Positions 7,246 to 48,947 of a stretch of DNA of 64,000 nt are shown one piece after another (within the stretch, counting starts at the first letter, position 1; each line of letters starts with the position of its first letter). The stretch comes from Chryseomicrobium sp. FSL W7-1435 (GTDB taxonomy: Bacteria > Bacillota > Bacilli > Bacillales_A > Planococcaceae). Both the position numbers and the translations under genes were made by a program. Below the pieces are notes generated by a model, which did not search any database, was not told the origin of the DNA, and saw only the letters and a list, made by a program, of their open reading frames with translations. The stretch is taken from positions 1,798,001 through 1,862,000 of the forward strand of contig NZ_CP151997.1 of assembly GCF_038595005.1 (NCBI RefSeq). Direction: 5' to 3'.

Positions 7246-7376
7246 CAGAAAAATAGCCATAGTTGGTTTTTTCCGTCCCTGTCAAATTATTGATCAAGGC
7301 GATAAGTTGTCATGTGGTACTGGATGGAGCAAGGTACAGTTCTATTGAAGATACTGTCCATTTTTAGTGTAGCATA

Positions 7377-12238: not shown

Positions 12239-13108
12239 ATGAAAGTAGGACTGAAACTTAAAAATATCTTTTTTATCATACTTGGCGCTGCTATATTTAG
12301 CTTTGGCTTTGTTCATTTTAATATTCAAAATGAACTTGGTGAAGGTGGCTTCTCAGGTATCACATTAATTCTTTATTTTGTATTGGGATGGGACGTAGCT
12401 TTAATGAACTTATTATTAAATATTCCCATGTTTTTTATCGGTTGGAAACTGCTTGGTCGAAAAGTATTTTTATACACGTTGATTGGGACACTGAGCGTCT
12501 CTGTATTTTTAAAACTATTCCAAGTTTATGAGGTGCAAATTGGATTACAAGATGATTTGTTCCTTGCTTCTTTATTTGCTGGAGTATTTGTAGGTGTAGG
12601 CTTAGGTATTATCTTTAGATATGGTGGTACAACAGGTGGCGTAGATATTTTAGCACGACTTGTCCATAAATATGTGGGCTGGAGCATGGGAAAAACCATG
12701 TTCTTGTTTGATGCATTTGTTATTTTGTTATCTTGGCTTACATTTTTAGATGAGCGCTCAATGATGTATACATTAGTAGCCGTCTTTGTGGGGGCACGTG
12801 TGATTGATTTTGTGCAAGAAGGTGCCTATTCTGCTCGTGGCGCTTTCATAATCTCAGATCATCAACAATCCATTGCGGAACGAATTGGCACAGAAATGGA
12901 CCGTGGAGTTACGATTTTAGATGGTCACGGATTCTATTCGAAAGCAAAACGTGAAATGTTGTATTGTGTCATAGGACGCAACGAGATTGTGCGTTTAAAG
13001 AATATTATTACTTCTGTCGACCCGCACGCATTTGTTTCGATTGTCGATGTAAAAGATGTCATGGGTGAGGGCTTCACGCTGGATGAAAATAAGAAACCAT
13101 TTGATTAA
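12239..13108 (+). CDS. YitT-family membrane protein with DUF2179 C-terminal domain
   Basis: 289 residues. About five hydrophobic segments occupy the first about 195 residues (FFIILGAAIFSFGFVHF, LMNLLLNIPMFFIGW and others), with the family signature GGTTGGVDILARL. The cytoplasmic C-terminal DUF2179 domain follows (RGVTILDGHGFYSK, VDPHAFVSIVDVKDVMGEGF). Of unknown molecular function. The start ATG at 12239 is preferred over 12218 because GAGGTGG precedes it and 12218 would fall in the proposed -10 box. It occupies the position of ypjC in B. subtilis but in divergent orientation. Confidence 0.88.
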   Translation: MKVGLKLKNIFFIILGAAIFSFGFVHFNIQNELGEGGFSGITLILYFVLGWDVALMNLLLNIPMFFIGWKLLGRKVFLYTLIGTLSVSVFLKLFQVYEVQIGLQDDLFLASLFAGVFVGVGLGIIFRYGGTTGGVDILARLVHKYVGWSMGKTMFLFDAFVILLSWLTFLDERSMMYTLVAVFVGARVIDFVQEGAYSARGAFIISDHQQSIAERIGTEMDRGVTILDGHGFYSKAKREMLYCVIGRNEIVRLKNIITSVDPHAFVSIVDVKDVMGEGFTLDENKKPFD

Positions 13109-13394
13109 CTAGAAAAGTGGAACAGGCTTGAACAGAAATGCCGAGTGAATCTGGCGTGCCCGTAGAGACTCTCTTCGTCTCTGCGGGTGCGACAGATTTG
13201 GGAGTGTATTTCTAGCCTGTGGAACTAGACAACTAGAAAAGTGGAACAGGCTTGAACAGAAATGCCGAGTGAATCTGGCGTGCCCGTAGAGACTCTCTTC
13301 GTCTCTGCGGGTGCGACAGATTTGGGAGTGTATTTCTAGCCTGTGAAACTAGACAACTAGAAAAGTGGAACAGGCTTGCCCAGAAATGCCGAGT
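13107..13394 (+). repeat. Tandem 124-bp palindromic intergenic repeat (2.3 copies)
   Basis: Copies begin with AACTAGAAAAGTGG at 13107, 13231 and 13355, an exact 124-bp period. The first two are full and nearly identical; the third stops after about 40 bp. Each unit is itself a nested palindrome: outer ACAGGCT/AGCCTGT, then AGAAAT/ATTTCT, AATCTG/CAGATT, CCCG/CGGG and GAGAC/GTCTC around a short loop. The array fills the space between the YitT-family stop codon and the shared terminator. It has no coding potential. Confidence 0.9.
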
Positions 13395-13399
13395 AATCA

Positions 13400-24269: not shown

Positions 24270-25442
24270 TTAAAACTCCTTTGCAGCCTTACGACGCTCG
24301 TTAACAGCAGTTCGCAATTGATCTAAGTGATCTGCAGGGAACGTATCTAGAAGTGCCTGAGCGACTTCCCAAGCAATCACATGCTCTGCTACAACAGAAG
24401 CTGCTGGTACGGCACATGCATCTGAACGTTCGATACTTGCTTTGAATACTTCTTTTGTATCAATATCCACACTTTCAAGGGGTTTGTATAAAGTCGGGAT
24501 TGGCTTCATCACGCCTCTTACGACAAGAGGCATACCTGTTGACATGCCACCTTCTGTTCCGCCAAGACGATTCGTTTCACGCGTATAGCCTTCCTGCTCG
24601 TTGTAACGAATTTGATCATGCACTTGACTACCTGGAAGGTTGGCCATTTCAAATCCAAGACCGAGCTCCACACCTTTAAATGCATTGATACTCATCATTG
24701 CAAACGCAAGACGGGCATCGAGTTTACGATCGTAATGGACGTAGCTTCCAACACCTGGAGGCATTCCCGTAACACGAACTTCAACGACCCCACCGATTGT
24801 ATCTCCTGCCTTTTTCGCAGCATCAATGGCTGAAACCATTTCTTTTGATACTTCTTCGTCTAGGCAATAGACCGGATTGGCTGCTGCACGTTCCGCAATT
24901 TCAGAAGCCTGTAGCGCTTCTGGTATCGAACGGTCTGCATGAATACCACCAATTGTTGTCACATAAGCCGTCACGTGAATATCTAATTGTTCTAGTAGTT
25001 GTTTTGCTAGTGCGCCAGCAGCTACCCGCACAGTTGTTTCACGTGCAGAAGAACGTTCAAGTACATTGCGTAAATCGCGGTGGTTGTATTTTATTCCACC
25101 AACAAGATCTGCATGCCCTGGGCGGGGGCGTGAAATTTGTCGCTTGACCTCTGCATCATCTTCCGGAGGTTCAATACCCATGATGTGTGTCCAGTGCTTC
25201 CAGTCATCGTTTGTGACTTGCAGACAGATGGGAGAACCTAAAGATTTCCCATGACGAACACCTGCAGTTATTTCGACTAAATCTTTTTCAATTTGCATGC
25301 GGCGTCCACGTCCATGACCGCCTTGGCGTCTGCGCAATGAATCATTTAGTTTTTCAATTGAAATCTCAAGTTGTGAAGGCAACCCTTCGACAATAGTTGT
25401 TAGTTGAGGTCCATGAGACTCTCCAGCAGTTAAGTAACGCAA
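24270..25442 (-). CDS. aroC: Chorismate synthase
   Basis: 390 residues. Converts EPSP to chorismate with reduced FMN. Family motifs: [10 protein letters not shown] at the N-terminus, [10 protein letters not shown] and [14 protein letters not shown] in the core, and [10 protein letters not shown] toward the C-terminus. The start is an uncommon TTG at 25442 ([11 protein letters not shown]), supported by AAGGGAG 9 nt upstream; there is no alternative start upstream. Called aroF in B. subtilis. First gene of the cluster. Confidence 0.96.
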
Positions 25443-25483
25443 AATAACTTTCTCCCTTCAACGTGCTAAAGTATATGTTTTTC

Positions 25484-25512
25484 ACTATACCACAATCATA
25501 CGTGAATCTGAA
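25484..25512 (-). promoter_or_regulatory. Probable sigmaA promoter of the aro cluster
   Basis: On the minus strand there is -35 TTCAGA (25507-25512), a 17-bp spacer and -10 TATAGT (25484-25489), about 42 bp before the aroC TTG start. Confidence 0.5.
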
Positions 25513-26004
25513 ATGGTGTACACCTAGAAAATTAGAAAGTCTAATTAAATGATAAGGACAGGACCAAGAACTTCTTCTAATCCTGATGCATCTTACGAAG
25601 CTTGACTTTAAGTTCAAATTAAGAACGAAAAGGACTGGGCCCGCTCTGTTCGAGCGGGCCCAGCGCGAATCTACTTAGTTCGAGCTTACACAAGCTTCTC
25701 CAGTTGAACCCTGCTAGTTGAAGTTCTTTTTTTCAGGAAGTGGTAGCTTGCAACGTCTTCGTGTCGGCTCTGCCTCTATTGGTGCATCTACTTTTACAGC
25801 TTGCTCGAGTTTAAAAGTTAGAAAATCGCTGCGCTAACGCGAGGCTCGATTAAGCTTGTGAACATTCACTGTTTAGGTCAGCGAGATTGCCGATCATTGC
25901 TTTTTTAAGTACAAATTCTTTATTACTTTAAGCCCTTACTAGAAAGATCTTGAGCATTTAAAGTGGTTTAGTCTCAAAGAATGTTCGTCACAATCGTTTT
26001 CTCA
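25513..26004. other. Gene-free region with a GC-rich hairpin, function unknown
   Basis: No credible coding region. A perfect 12-bp inverted repeat CTGGGCCCGCTC/GAGCGGGCCCAG (25635-25646 and 25652-25663, 5-nt loop) stands out in an AT-rich surrounding but lacks a T-run next to it. Downstream there are short inverted repeats built from TCGAG and AAGCTT words up to about 25880. I do not recognise the rest. It lies between the divergent ends of two minus-strand units (upstream of aroC, downstream of ndk). Confidence 0.5.
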
Positions 26005-26187
26005 CTCATGAATTATTTAATCAATCATCAGAATGGATTATTCACTCATCAAAATGGGTTTAGCCATCATCACTACGCAATATTCGCTCATCACGGATTT
26101 ACCCGATCATCAAAATTGGTTAATCACTCATCAGAATTACTTAATCGCTCATCAGATTCAATTTATCGCTCATCACGGATTTAACTT
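26005..26187 (+). repeat. Phased heptamer array, locus 1 (ATCATCA/CTCATCA, 21-21-21-19 bp)
   Basis: Nine heptamers of the form [AC]TCATCA (the first reads CTCATGA) begin at 26005, 26024, 26045, 26066, 26087, 26106, 26127, 26148 and 26169. The steps are 19, 21, 21, 21, 19, 21, 21, 21. The sequence between heptamers is AT-rich and variable, but the units just before each 19-bp step and at the array end share a CACGGATTTA core. The last heptamer begins 34 bp before the 152-bp hairpin element. See the matching array at 42339-42584. Confidence 0.9.
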
Positions 26188-26202
26188 CACTGCATTATCG
26201 AT

Positions 26203-26354
26203 TTGAAATCCCGGAAGCCAGGTTACCATTTCCCAGGCCAGCTGAGTTTTACCGAGACCCGGCAACGCAGCCGAAAGCGCTCTTCTTTCGGCTGACGTGG
26301 GGAGGCTCGCAGAAACTCACCTAGGAAATGGTGTTCTGGGTGGAGGGATTTCAA
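26203..26354 (+). repeat. 152-bp nested hairpin element, copy 1
   Basis: The ends are TTGAAATCCC and GGGATTTCAA, a perfect 10-bp inverted repeat. Inside, CCAG/CTGG, CCATTTCC/GGAAATGG, TGAGTTT/AAACTCA and CGAG/CTCG pair in nested order, down to an apical stem AGCCGAAAG/CTTTCGGCT with a 7-nt loop. The second copy at 42600-42751 has exactly the same length and the same orientation. It is non-coding. Confidence 0.9.
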
Positions 26355-26510
26355 ATTCCACTAAAATTGATTGTGACCTTTTTTACGCCATCTGAATTAG
26401 GCTGAGCACTATCAATTCAACTAAAGTGTCATTATTCAGGTTAATGAGTATAGACCTGCAGAAAACCTCTTATGAAAAAGCGACTATAATTGAGGGATTT
26501 CAAATCATAC

Positions 26511-26540
26511 GAAAAAAAGACACCCAAAAGGATGTCTTTT
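26511..26540 (-). terminator. Terminator after ndk
   Basis: On the minus strand AAAAGACA-TCC pairs with GGG-TGTCTTTT around TTTT, followed by a T-run. It starts 8 bp past the ndk stop codon. Confidence 0.8.
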
Positions 26541-26547
26541 AATTGGA

Positions 26548-26994
26548 TTAGTTAATCCAGTCGTTTGATGATTTTGTGTAAGTAACTAATTCTTCTTGTT
26601 TGAAGAATAAACCAATTTCACGCTCAGCAGACTCAGCAGAATCTGAACCATGAATGATGTTTTTCCCAACAGTTACAGCGAAATCTCCGCGTACAGTACC
26701 AGGAGCAGAATCTTTAGGGTTTGTAGCACCCATCATAAGACGTGCAGTTGAGATAGCGTTTTCGCCTTCCCATACCATAGCAAATACTGGACCTGAAGTG
26801 ATGAACTCAACAAGCTCTCCGAAGAATGGGCGCTCTTTATGCTCGCCGTAATGCTCTTTTGCAAGTTCAGTTGGGATTTGCATTAATTTTGCTCCAACAA
26901 GTTGGAATCCTTTTTTCTCAAAACGGCCAACGATTTCACCAATTAGGTTACGTTGAACGCCATCAGGTTTTACCATTAAAAATGTTTTTTCCAT
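26548..26994 (-). CDS. ndk: Nucleoside diphosphate kinase
   Basis: 148 residues. Transfers the gamma phosphate between nucleoside di- and triphosphates through phospho-His. The active-site His is H115 in NIIHGSDS; the N-terminal [18 protein letters not shown] and the RGDFAV segment are typical. Next to hepT as in B. subtilis, but cheR, which follows ndk there, is absent here. Confidence 0.96.
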
Positions 26995-41260: not shown

Positions 41261-41323
41261 TTTTTTTTCCTCCTCTCGTGGTACTATATTCATATCGTAC
41301 CATTTTATTAAAGGGGTGTGAAA

Positions 41324-42310
41324 ATGAAAAAATTATTACTCTTACATACAGGTGGAACTATTTCCATGCATGCAGTTGAAAAGTCAGCGGCAGTCATGAC
41401 TTCAGCGATAAATCCGCTGTCGGCTGAATTAGATAAATTATCTTCATTAGCAAATATTGACGAAGTTGAAGTGTTTAACCTACCTTCTCCTCACGTGACT
41501 CCAAGTCATATGATGCAGTTGAAAGAGGTTATTGAATTAAAACTTTCGACTACTAGCTATGATGGCATTGTCATCACTCATGGAACTGATACGCTTGAAG
41601 AGACTGCTTATTTTTTGGATTTAACACTCAACCTGTCTATTCCAATTGTCCTTACGGGGGCTATGCGATCTTCCAATGAACTTGGCGCTGATGGTGTTTA
41701 TAATCTATTGACTGCTGCCCGTGTAGCCTTGAATAAGAAGGCGCGAGACAAAGGTGTGTTAGTTGTGTTAAACGATGAAATTCACACTGCTGAAGGGGTT
41801 ACTAAGACGCACACTAGCAATGTCTCAACATTCCAATCGCCTTCTTACGGCCAGATTGGGCATGTCACGAAATCCATTATACATTTTCACAATCAGCCAC
41901 TTCGAACTCCATATTTACCTATTAACAAGCTGACGAAACGAGTCGCGCTGTTAAAAGTATACGCCGGAATGGAACCTGAACTCATCCAAGCAATTTCTCA
42001 AGCCGGTTACGATGGGTTGGTGCTTGAGGGATTAGGCCAAGGTAATATCCCACCCGCTTTAGTACCCGAAATTGATCAATTAGCAAGTCGGCATCTGCCC
42101 ATCGTTTTGGTATCCCGTTGCTTTAATGGTATTGCATTGGATGTTTATGGCTACTCAGGAGGCGGGCGCGATCTAAAAAATCGTGGCGTTCATTTTGCAC
42201 ATGGATTAAACGGGCAAAAAGCACGATTGGCATTACTGGCTGCTCTGCATCAACCAGAGCCTGCTGCTGCGCTGGTTCGTTTTTTCCAATCGGCGTATTT
42301 AGAAGAGTAA
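41324..42310 (+). CDS. ansA: Type I L-asparaginase
   Basis: 328 residues from ATG 41324 after AAAGGGG. Hydrolyses asparagine to aspartate and ammonia. First catalytic Thr in LLHTGGTISM, second in THGTDTLEETAYFLDL with the Asp and Lys network; no signal peptide, so cytoplasmic. It is divergent from prsW. B. subtilis carries ansA elsewhere with ansB; here it stands alone next to a repeat locus. Confidence 0.93.
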   Translation: MKKLLLLHTGGTISMHAVEKSAAVMTSAINPLSAELDKLSSLANIDEVEVFNLPSPHVTPSHMMQLKEVIELKLSTTSYDGIVITHGTDTLEETAYFLDLTLNLSIPIVLTGAMRSSNELGADGVYNLLTAARVALNKKARDKGVLVVLNDEIHTAEGVTKTHTSNVSTFQSPSYGQIGHVTKSIIHFHNQPLRTPYLPINKLTKRVALLKVYAGMEPELIQAISQAGYDGLVLEGLGQGNIPPALVPEIDQLASRHLPIVLVSRCFNGIALDVYGYSGGGRDLKNRGVHFAHGLNGQKARLALLAALHQPEPAAALVRFFQSAYLEE

Positions 42311-42338
42311 TTCGAGGTTCCAGTACACGAGTTATGCA

Positions 42339-42584
42339 CTCATCGTAACGAGTTATTCAATCATCAGAAACGTTTTAGCGATTACCACAGAGCAAGTTTC
42401 GATCATCACGTATTTACGCGATCATCATAACGAGTTATTCAATCATCAGAAACGTTTTAGCGATCATCACAGAGCAAGTTTCGATCATCACGTATTTACG
42501 CGATCATCATAACGAGTTATTCAATCATCAGAAACGTTTTAGCGATCATCACAGAGCATGTTTCGATCATCACGAATTTACGCC
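42339..42584 (+). repeat. Phased heptamer array, locus 2 (82-bp super-repeat)
   Basis: Twelve heptamers (mostly ATCATCA; the first is CTCATCG and the third ATTACCA) begin at 42339, 42360, 42381, 42402, 42421, 42442, 42463, 42484, 42503, 42524, 42545 and 42566. The steps are 21, 21, 21, 19 repeated. The array is three near-identical 82-bp super-units (42346, 42428, 42510). The four units in each super-unit differ from each other but are conserved between super-units. The unit before the 19-bp step has a CACGTATTTA core, corresponding to CACGGATTTA at locus 1. Confidence 0.92.
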
Positions 42585-42599
42585 ACTAACTTAACCAAT

Positions 42600-42751
42600 T
42601 TGAAATTTTGGAAGCCAGGTTGCCATTTCCCAGGCCCTCTGATTTTCACCGAGACCCGGCAACGCAGCTGAAAGCGTTCTTCTTTCGGCTGACGTGGGGA
42701 GGCTCGCAGAAACTCACCTAGGAAATGGTGTTCTGGCTGAAGGGATTTCAA
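42600..42751 (+). repeat. 152-bp nested hairpin element, copy 2
   Basis: Same length, orientation and architecture as 26203-26354, beginning 34 bp after the start of the last heptamer, exactly as at locus 1. The 5' terminus reads TTGAAATTTT against GGGATTTCAA, so three C-to-T changes turn G-C pairs into G-U pairs if read as plus-strand RNA; the apical stem AGCTGAAAG/CTTTCGGCT shows the same type of change. Located 290 bp downstream of ansA. The remaining 68 bp to the ypdA terminator show nothing. Confidence 0.9.
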
Positions 42752-42804
42752 GTTTCACACAGCTTAATTATTAATTTCCCTCTTGACACCCGCAAAAATT
42801 GCAT

Positions 42805-42838
42805 CAAAAAAAGCACACTCTACTCAGTGTGCTTTTTT
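42805..42838 (-). terminator. Terminator at the ypdA 3' end
   Basis: AGCACAC pairs with GTGTGCT, extended by A6/T6 tracts. The 5' arm covers the last codons of ypdA. Confidence 0.85.
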
Positions 42839-43785
42839 GCAATATGCTGCGCAATCAATTCTCCATGAAAGCGACCATTTTCTATGAATATTTCATTTGC
42901 ATTGTTCCCAGCAGCAATAACACCTGCAATATAAACACCTGGAACGTTGGTTTCCATCGTAGATTCGTCTAGGAAAGGTTTGCCGGTTTCTTGATCAAAA
43001 TCAATTCCTAAGTCAATCAAGAATTGACGGTTTGGTTGATAACCCGTCATCGCAAAAACAAAATCAGCAGATACCTCTTTTTGTTCGCCAGCACTTTGCA
43101 CAATAACCGAACGGTCTGTAATCTCTACCACCTCAGTTGAAAAATGCATCGTGATTTCACCATTTTTAACTGCCCCTTCAAACTCAGGAAGCACCCATGG
43201 CTTGATACTTGGTGAATAGCTCCCGCCTCTGTAAACAACATGCACATTTGCCCCTGCTTTATTTAATTCAAGAGCAGCATCTATGGCAGAGTTTTTTCCG
43301 CCAATTACAATGACATCCTGTTGAAAGTAGGGATGCCCTTCTTTAAAGTAATGGTAAACATGAGGCAGTTGTTCTCCCGGAATGTTCATTAGGTTTGGTT
43401 GGTCATAATATCCCGTTGCAATAACAATAGAACTTGCCGTATAGCTACCTTTTGATGTTGTCACATGAAAGTGATCTTCAACCTTAGCTACACTCGCTAC
43501 AGTCTCAAATGTGTTAATGCGCAGGTTTTTTCGTTTTACAACTTCGCGGTAATAAACAAGCGCTTGATTACGCTTAGGCTTTCTCTGTTCGACAATGAAG
43601 GGAACATCTCCAATACCTAATTTTTCACTAGTGCTAAAAAAAGTTTGATGGGTAGGATAGTTGTAGATAGCATTGACAATGTTTCCTTTTTCGAGGCACA
43701 AGTAGTTTAGTCCTTTTTCTTGAACGGCAATCGCTGCAGCAAGACCACAAGGGCCTCCTCCAATAATAATGACATCGTAGTTCAT
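42820..43785 (-). CDS. ypdA: Bacillithiol disulfide reductase YpdA (Bdr)
   Basis: 321-residue FAD/NADPH oxidoreductase. FAD-binding GGGPCGLAAAIA at the N-terminus, NADPH-binding IGGKNSAIDAALEL near 165, and a C-terminal FAD contact (VYIAGVIAAGN). It lacks a thioredoxin-reductase CxxC pair; YpdA proteins use the Cys of GGGPCG. Reduces bacillithiol disulfide. In B. subtilis gudB precedes it; here a phosphoesterase gene does. Confidence 0.93.
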   Translation of the reverse strand: MNYDVIIIGGGPCGLAAAIAVQEKGLNYLCLEKGNIVNAIYNYPTHQTFFSTSEKLGIGDVPFIVEQRKPKRNQALVYYREVVKRKNLRINTFETVASVAKVEDHFHVTTSKGSYTASSIVIATGYYDQPNLMNIPGEQLPHVYHYFKEGHPYFQQDVIVIGGKNSAIDAALELNKAGANVHVVYRGGSYSPSIKPWVLPEFEGAVKNGEITMHFSTEVVEITDRSVIVQSAGEQKEVSADFVFAMTGYQPNRQFLIDLGIDFDQETGKPFLDESTMETNVPGVYIAGVIAAGNNANEIFIENGRFHGELIAQHIAKKHTE

Positions 43786-48762: not shown

Positions 48763-48810
48763 AGAAAGGTACACTTAAATAAGCGTTTGAGATCACATAA
48801 ACGCTGCACC

Positions 48811-48930
48811 TTCACCTTCTCCCATCCAGACTATACTGTCGGCTTTGGAATCTCACCAAATCCTGCCTTACGGCTCGCGGGCTAAACTTTCGTTATTACC
48901 GCCGATCGGGAATTGCACCCTGCCCCGAAG
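48811..48930 (-). ncRNA. FMN riboswitch (RFN element)
   Basis: On the minus strand the conserved blocks appear in order: GGGGCAGGGTG, AATTCCCGATCGGCGGTA, AGCCCGCGAGCC, GGATTTGGTGAGATTCC, AAAGCCGACAGTATAGTC and GGATGGGAGAAGGTGAA. These are the signatures of the RFN aptamer. The 5' TCTTC and 3' GGGAGAAG ends close the P1 stem. Followed by the terminator at 48733-48762, so FMN should lower ribU expression. Confidence 0.95.
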
Positions 48931-48947
48931 ATGAATCATATGATTAA

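Follow-up and report, generated by a model that had tools for sequence, protein, structure and literature searches.

The array at positions 42339–42584 of the window (the whole stretch of DNA analysed here, 64 kb long) belongs to a large set of satellite-like arrays, mostly situated behind genes, with units about two B-DNA turns apart. This one spacing is common to unrelated motifs, here and in some related species, and suggests that a putative protein coats the arrays. We give roughly an even chance to the reading that the arrays are a double-stranded lattice of predicted sites on one face of the helix, placed behind genes and bound by a putative cooperative protein.

Structure and setting of the array

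The array lies on the + strand and comprises 12 units. The initial annotation had placed motif starts at 42339, 42360, 42381, 42402, 42421, 42442, 42463, 42484, 42503, 42524, 42545 and 42566, and all of these are present in the sequence, with steps of 21, 21, 21 and 19 bp repeated to give an 82-bp higher-order repeat in three copies (TRF on 42340–42583: period 82 bp, 3.0 copies, 96% match). Among the 12 motifs, those at 42339 (CTCATCG) and 42381 (ATTACCA) are degenerate. Judged from the steps counted here, nine of the 11 being 21 bp, the array has units of constant size (four or more units, of which at least 60% agree in length to within 1 nt). A search of the 64-kb window for ATCATCA-N14-ATCATCA with up to two mismatches gave 19 matches, mostly inside two arrays, against a mean of 0.99 and a maximum of 4 in shuffled sequence.

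The gap between the end of the asparaginase gene (41318–42310, + strand; Pfam PF00710 and PF17763) and the array is 28 bp, and on the other side a pyridine nucleotide-disulphide oxidoreductase gene (42820–43785, − strand; PF13738) stands in convergent orientation. The array, sitting between gene ends at 42310 and 42820, is non-coding, also because its 19-bp units break the reading frame. At positions 14–18 the units have a T/A-rich stretch.

Spacing across the genome

When steps of 10–40 bp were allowed, TCATCA triplets gave 116 matches genome-wide and the reversed pattern gave none; this free-step search superseded an earlier one limited to 20–22- and 18–22-bp steps. Among the 100 triplets listed of the 116, 98 have only 19-, 20-, 21- or 40-bp steps, a 40-bp step spanning two units whose middle motif is degenerate, and the exceptions are at 97100 (30, 21) and 1857754 (18, 18). 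The excess of this spacing at other copies of the motif, on which the initial annotation had made its helical reading depend, is thus present genome-wide.

In 16 TCATCA arrays, drawn from stretches chosen for arrays or hairpins, 20- or 21-bp steps make up 110 of the 132 (99 of 21 bp, 17 of 19 bp, 11 of 20 bp, three of 40 bp and two of 42 bp). The claim that only 19- and 21-bp steps occur therefore holds for 42339–42584 but not for the genome, where three arrays run 21, 21, 20 (a 62-bp repeat) and one more array includes a single 20-bp step. The TCATCA arrays have two correction schemes, 19-bp steps being parted by three or four 21s and 20-bp steps by one or two, and two arrays mix 19- and 20-bp steps.

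A second motif keeps the same spacing. With steps of 11–40 bp allowed, all 21 GGGCAYTG triplets, in five places, lay at 20/21 bp and the reversed pattern gave none; at 543 kb the order is 21, 21, 20. The composite repeat at 1.237 Mb (L102) carries six TCATCA motifs, then eight GGGCAYT (steps 21, 21, 21, 20, 20, 21, 21), then one TCATCA, and the TCATCA motifs flanking the GGGCAYT block are 185 bp apart, which is nine units of 20.6 bp, so that the register is kept through the motif replacement. The GGGCAYT units are entered with a 17-bp offset at L102, identical at L099. This one genome holds several sequence families (TCATCA, GGGCAYTG and ACAAGT) of one unit length.

Arrays as modules of a dispersed composite repeat

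The window contains another array, at 26024–26183 (locus 1, + strand), and the initial annotation had argued that recent duplication could explain the 82-bp identity at 42339–42584 (locus 2) but not the same phase at the diverged locus 1. The pattern claimed for locus 1 stands in its exact TCATCA steps (21, 21, 21, 19, 21, 21, 21), while the leading 19 rests on a degenerate CTCATGA at 26005. The independence of locus 1 does not survive: a single dispersed composite is present at both loci as copies, hence the phase they have in common is inherited and the argument against duplication fails. At locus 1 the composite spans 25537–26372 (+ strand; L095 3538–4373) and consists of 5' modules, a GC-rich hairpin (25634–25664; 13 pairs, terminator-like on the − strand), the array and a long hairpin (26201–26361, + strand; 91% identical over 161 bp). 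The genes flanking this array-hairpin pair encode nucleoside diphosphate kinase and chorismate synthase.

Self-comparison of selected stretches of the genome gave composites of about 300–1,700 bp in which the order of the modules, where present, is mostly constant: a repeated 5' module, the GC-rich hairpin, further modules, the array, the long hairpin and 3' repeats, which usually then meet an opposite-strand gene at its 3' end. An array (at least five TCATCA or three GGGCAYT) occurs within 400 bp before the long hairpin in 12 of its 16 places; two of the four places that have none follow another hairpin copy in tandem. Conversely, five TCATCA arrays, at 877, 882, 886, 1040 and 1059 kb, have no adjoining hairpin copy, and these five are found in both orientations relative to genes, as expected for a function of double-stranded DNA rather than of one transcript strand.

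The long RNA-like hairpin

Directly after the array, at 42597–42757 on the + strand, lies the long hairpin, which is present at 16 places in the 2.71-Mb genome (87–100% identity, one copy truncated). It folds at −71.7 kcal/mol, compared with a mean of −48.4 for shuffled sequence (z −5.7). An alignment of 26 of the 29 copies from this genome and a second species (G001), leaving out the truncated L016 and the contig-end loci L074 and L075, showed that at 13 of the 45 consensus pairs one or more sequences have changed on both sides and still pair, and that four pair positions are mostly G-U, which suits an RNA on the array strand. A covariance model of the hairpin, run with stricter filters at the loss of weak matches, found matches in four of the 261 family genomes searched; these four belong to a single genus, and two of them had supplied the model. 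In the two other species (G002, G003) an array lies beside only one of 14 hairpin loci, with a different motif at 21 bp (L259).

Neither the array nor the hairpin has an Rfam match above the gathering score, all six matches in 42000–42900 falling below it; the weak C/D-box-like matches (sR2) in that interval were taken as chance. Across the whole window the only matches above the gathering score are an ordinary FMN riboswitch (48810–48936) and pan motif (7269–7360), both on the − strand. The ~160-nt hairpin probably forms an RNA structure in its own right and, being genus-specific, multicopy and without an Rfam family, is a candidate for a new structured RNA or mobile element.

The hairpin brings up the possibility that array and hairpin are transcribed together and act as RNA, the repeats serving as a sponge or structured RNA at the 3' ends of genes. 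The two-sided pair changes and G-U positions just described, on the array strand, would fit such a function, and the 52-nt repeats of B. coagulans are reported to be transcribed (PMC8161180, PMC8625621). Spacing by whole helical turns, however, is not expected of single-stranded RNA, the hairpin-free arrays lie in both orientations to genes, and a simple consensus scan, itself weak evidence, found no promoter-like site on the + strand in 42200–42900 or 25400–26600. We consider an RNA-level function of the arrays distinctly unlikely.

Most hairpin copies read in this genome end alongside the 3' terminus of an opposite-strand gene. Sampled GC skew places the origin of replication near 0.36–0.42 Mb and the terminus near 1.71 Mb; all 16 hairpin copies run against the replication fork and most flanking genes likewise run the other way, so that replication-strand and gene-orientation effects on the hairpins are not separable. 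The arms of the hairpin at 42597–42757 contain ATTTCCC and GGAAAT, which we take to resemble halves of the B. subtilis Noc-binding site, a likeness that may be coincidence.

Arrays in other genomes

Noncoding DNA sampled from 20 genomes (199,480 bp) held 26 array spans (chains of at least four identical hexamers; the eight spans from G001 are pieces of three arrays), and the period was 20–22 bp in 17 of them. The remaining spans were at 11–13 bp (two), 17–19 bp (one), 38–40 bp (one), 41–43 bp (three) and 62–64 bp (two); most spans beyond 20–22 bp fall near its multiples, which the 41–43- and 62–64-bp windows include. Three rounds of dinucleotide shuffling of the sampled DNA gave no span in any window. 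L144 (all N) and N-containing noncoding segments were dropped before counting, and some samples had been chosen for hairpins (10 of the 20 G001 stretches) or TCATCA matches (four of the 17 G064 stretches).

Arrays of 20–22 bp occurred in four of the 20 sampled genomes (this one, G001, G064 and G020) and in none of the other 16, for which the samples were mostly small. The units have a conserved short motif, and the motifs differ between the sampled genomes: ACAAGT in this genome; TCTACC and CGGACA in G001; TCACTTTC, AGCGCT, TTTCGTCATTCG and CTAAGTCCG in G064; and TTTATTTG and TGAGCG in G020. The TCATCA core is not strictly species-specific, as it recurs in other Bacillales. Outside the family, TCATCA arrays were found in Bacillus canaveralius, Bacillus V3-13, Bacillus SJS and Halalkalibacter urbisdiaboli, with a mix of 20- and 21-bp steps, one of 19 bp, and mean periods of about 20.25–20.5 bp. 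The scan of genome contigs fixed three successive steps (20/21, 21 and 19/20 bp), so that its 24 matches cannot prove the period and only further steps are informative. Six of the 24 were read as Bacillales arrays (L211, which lies in a predicted ORF, L215, L216, L220, L226 and L231) and four as noncoding arrays of other groups (L219, L221, L228 and L230); the other 14 were low-complexity, microsatellite-like or in predicted ORFs.

A convergent gap of G064 (L143 18733–18892) holds two arrays of one motif that face each other inverted (TTTCGTCATTCG, then GAATGACGA).

Helical phase

The 12 arrays tested for phase, from five genomes, were picked for mixed steps (the list for the 886-kb array ended at its first 40-bp step), and their mean periods are 20.35–20.96 bp, or 10.2–10.5 bp per turn. 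One mean period is reached from different mixtures of steps (21/21/21/19, 21/21/20 and 20/21). Deviation from a lattice was below the mean of the array's own shuffled step orders in all 12; only two of the 12 tests fell singly below 0.02, and higher-order duplication makes the units non-independent, which inflates the result. Strict arrays of six 21-bp steps and of six 20-bp steps also exist and would drift apart over seven units, which indicates a constraint near two turns and not one exact number. As a gauge of indel constraint, gap openings per substitution were 0.084 in the arrays (one window per locus, picked by spacing) and 0.128 in the flanks, where the six stretches compared also vary little in length.

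The helical reading of the initial annotation is therefore partly supported: the spacing is held near two B-DNA turns, as the mean periods and the second motif show, while part of the order comes from 82-, 62- and 41-bp duplication. What carries the reading is that unrelated motifs have one spacing in common, and not the likeness of locus 1.

The same duplications also argue for a passive satellite, in which slippage, unequal crossing-over and mosaic copying would spread the repeats, with a 20–21-bp unit set by the copying machinery and no cellular function. The higher-order 82-, 62- and 41-bp repeats, the near-identical 82-bp copies at 42339–42584 and the many arrays that are modules of a dispersed repeat family are all in keeping with this. 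Slippage, on the other hand, gives no reason for one unit length to be found with different motifs across several genera, nor for 19/20- and 21-bp units to mix to one mean, and we regard a purely passive origin as somewhat unlikely.

It is very improbable that intrinsic curvature explains the arrays, the phased T-tracts bending the DNA without a sequence-specific protein. The T/A-rich stretch at unit positions 14–18 would favour bending, and predicted curvature (wedge model) exceeded that of shuffles at z ≥ 2.4 in four of 17 arrays; the other 13 were below this value, several being near 0 and three below it (range −1.4 to 4.6), and curvature would not need a conserved motif. On this scatter, intrinsic curvature was rejected as a property common to the arrays.

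Position relative to genes and a model for the arrays

The stretches used contain 432 gaps of at least 120 bp, 92 of them between divergent genes. The 26 gaps with arrays comprise one divergent, 10 convergent and 15 co-directional gaps (Fisher p = 0.024), so the arrays avoid gaps between divergent genes; as many stretches were chosen for an array or hairpin, this counts as a tendency.

In the lattice reading that we prefer, each unit would carry one binding site, the sites would face one side of the helix, and the putative protein would occupy these sites cooperatively, forming a short filament or lattice within the gap that follows a gene; such a structure may serve local chromosome packaging or insulation. 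The free-step spacing, the register at L102, the second motif, the 20–22-bp spans in sampled noncoding DNA, the differing motifs from several genomes, the closeness of the 12 mixed-step arrays to a lattice, the occurrence of hairpin-free arrays in both orientations and the avoidance of divergent gaps all argue for this model. Against it stand the fact that only two of the 12 lattice tests fall singly below 0.02, the non-independence of units that come from higher-order duplication, the strict arrays of six 20-bp or six 21-bp steps, the scatter of predicted curvature, the 16 of 20 genomes whose samples gave no 20–22-bp array and the single array beside the 14 G002/G003 hairpin loci. That the same mean period arises from different mixtures of steps, and that the motif changes without loss of spacing, suggests that selection acts on the helix face. 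If that is true, the arrays would represent DNA-organising sites of a class widespread in Gram-positive bacteria, with a putative protein that binds them.

A helix-phased coating general to the Bacillales is a broader proposal that we hold to be doubtful. Here a fast-evolving protein family would polymerise on lineage-specific lattices of whole turns (about 20.5 bp here, while the published 52-nt class would correspond to five turns) that lie behind transcription units and serve as insulators or topological barriers, and the motif would be swapped inside a standing lattice with the phase kept, as at L102.

Relation to known repeats

Constant-size Bacillus repeats of 20–21 nt were reportedly described earlier, in a J Bacteriol paper of 2020. 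The main text of Subirana and Messeguer (2021; PMC8161180) describes noncoding tandem repeats in Bacillus of constant size (20–21 or 52 nt) and variable sequence with short conserved motifs, and already points out the two turns of the helix. It also mentions a few related 40–41-nt repeats and the occurrence of constant-size repeats in many other bacterial groups, and proposes a polymerising protein or small RNAs. Bacterial repeats that agree in length but not in sequence have been reported with no known function. Our arrays resemble these repeats, as that text describes them, in being noncoding, of at least four units and 20–21 nt long, with several sequence families of one length per genome. 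By that account the 42339–42584 array is a member of the published constant-size kind, with variant features. The catalogue given there is of Bacillus ('Planococc' is absent from the main text), and we saw no mention there of compensated 19/21 units, replacement of the motif within an array, a mosaic hairpin element or a shortage of arrays in divergent gaps. The first three of these features are apparently new.

Two further systems offer partial parallels. Plasmid iterons are direct repeats spaced by about two helical turns, to which a protein binds cooperatively. The arrays share this spacing and, unlike iterons, occupy many chromosomal sites with different motifs; the four genes directly flanking the two window arrays (asparaginase, oxidoreductase, chorismate synthase and nucleoside diphosphate kinase) include no replication initiator gene. 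The BIME/REP elements of enterobacteria are intergenic mosaics of short modules with hairpins, often behind genes, and the composites are similar in all these respects. They differ in that no REP palindrome was found as the repeated unit and that the long hairpin is not a REP of 20–40 bp; to our knowledge, the two-turn direct-repeat array has no counterpart in BIME/REP.

Within or beside the composites of this genome, L098, L104 and L106 contain elements of about 110–150 bp delimited by GTGCCTGTCCC (or a closely similar sequence) and GGGACAGGCAC. The genome also has two matches to Y1_Tnp genes, and we presume that these and the bounded elements could together represent a mover of the REP/RAYT type. 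Elsewhere in the window, a 124-bp tandem repeat of 2.4 copies at 13107–13398, whose unit has 25 matches in the genome, represents a second dispersed repeat family.
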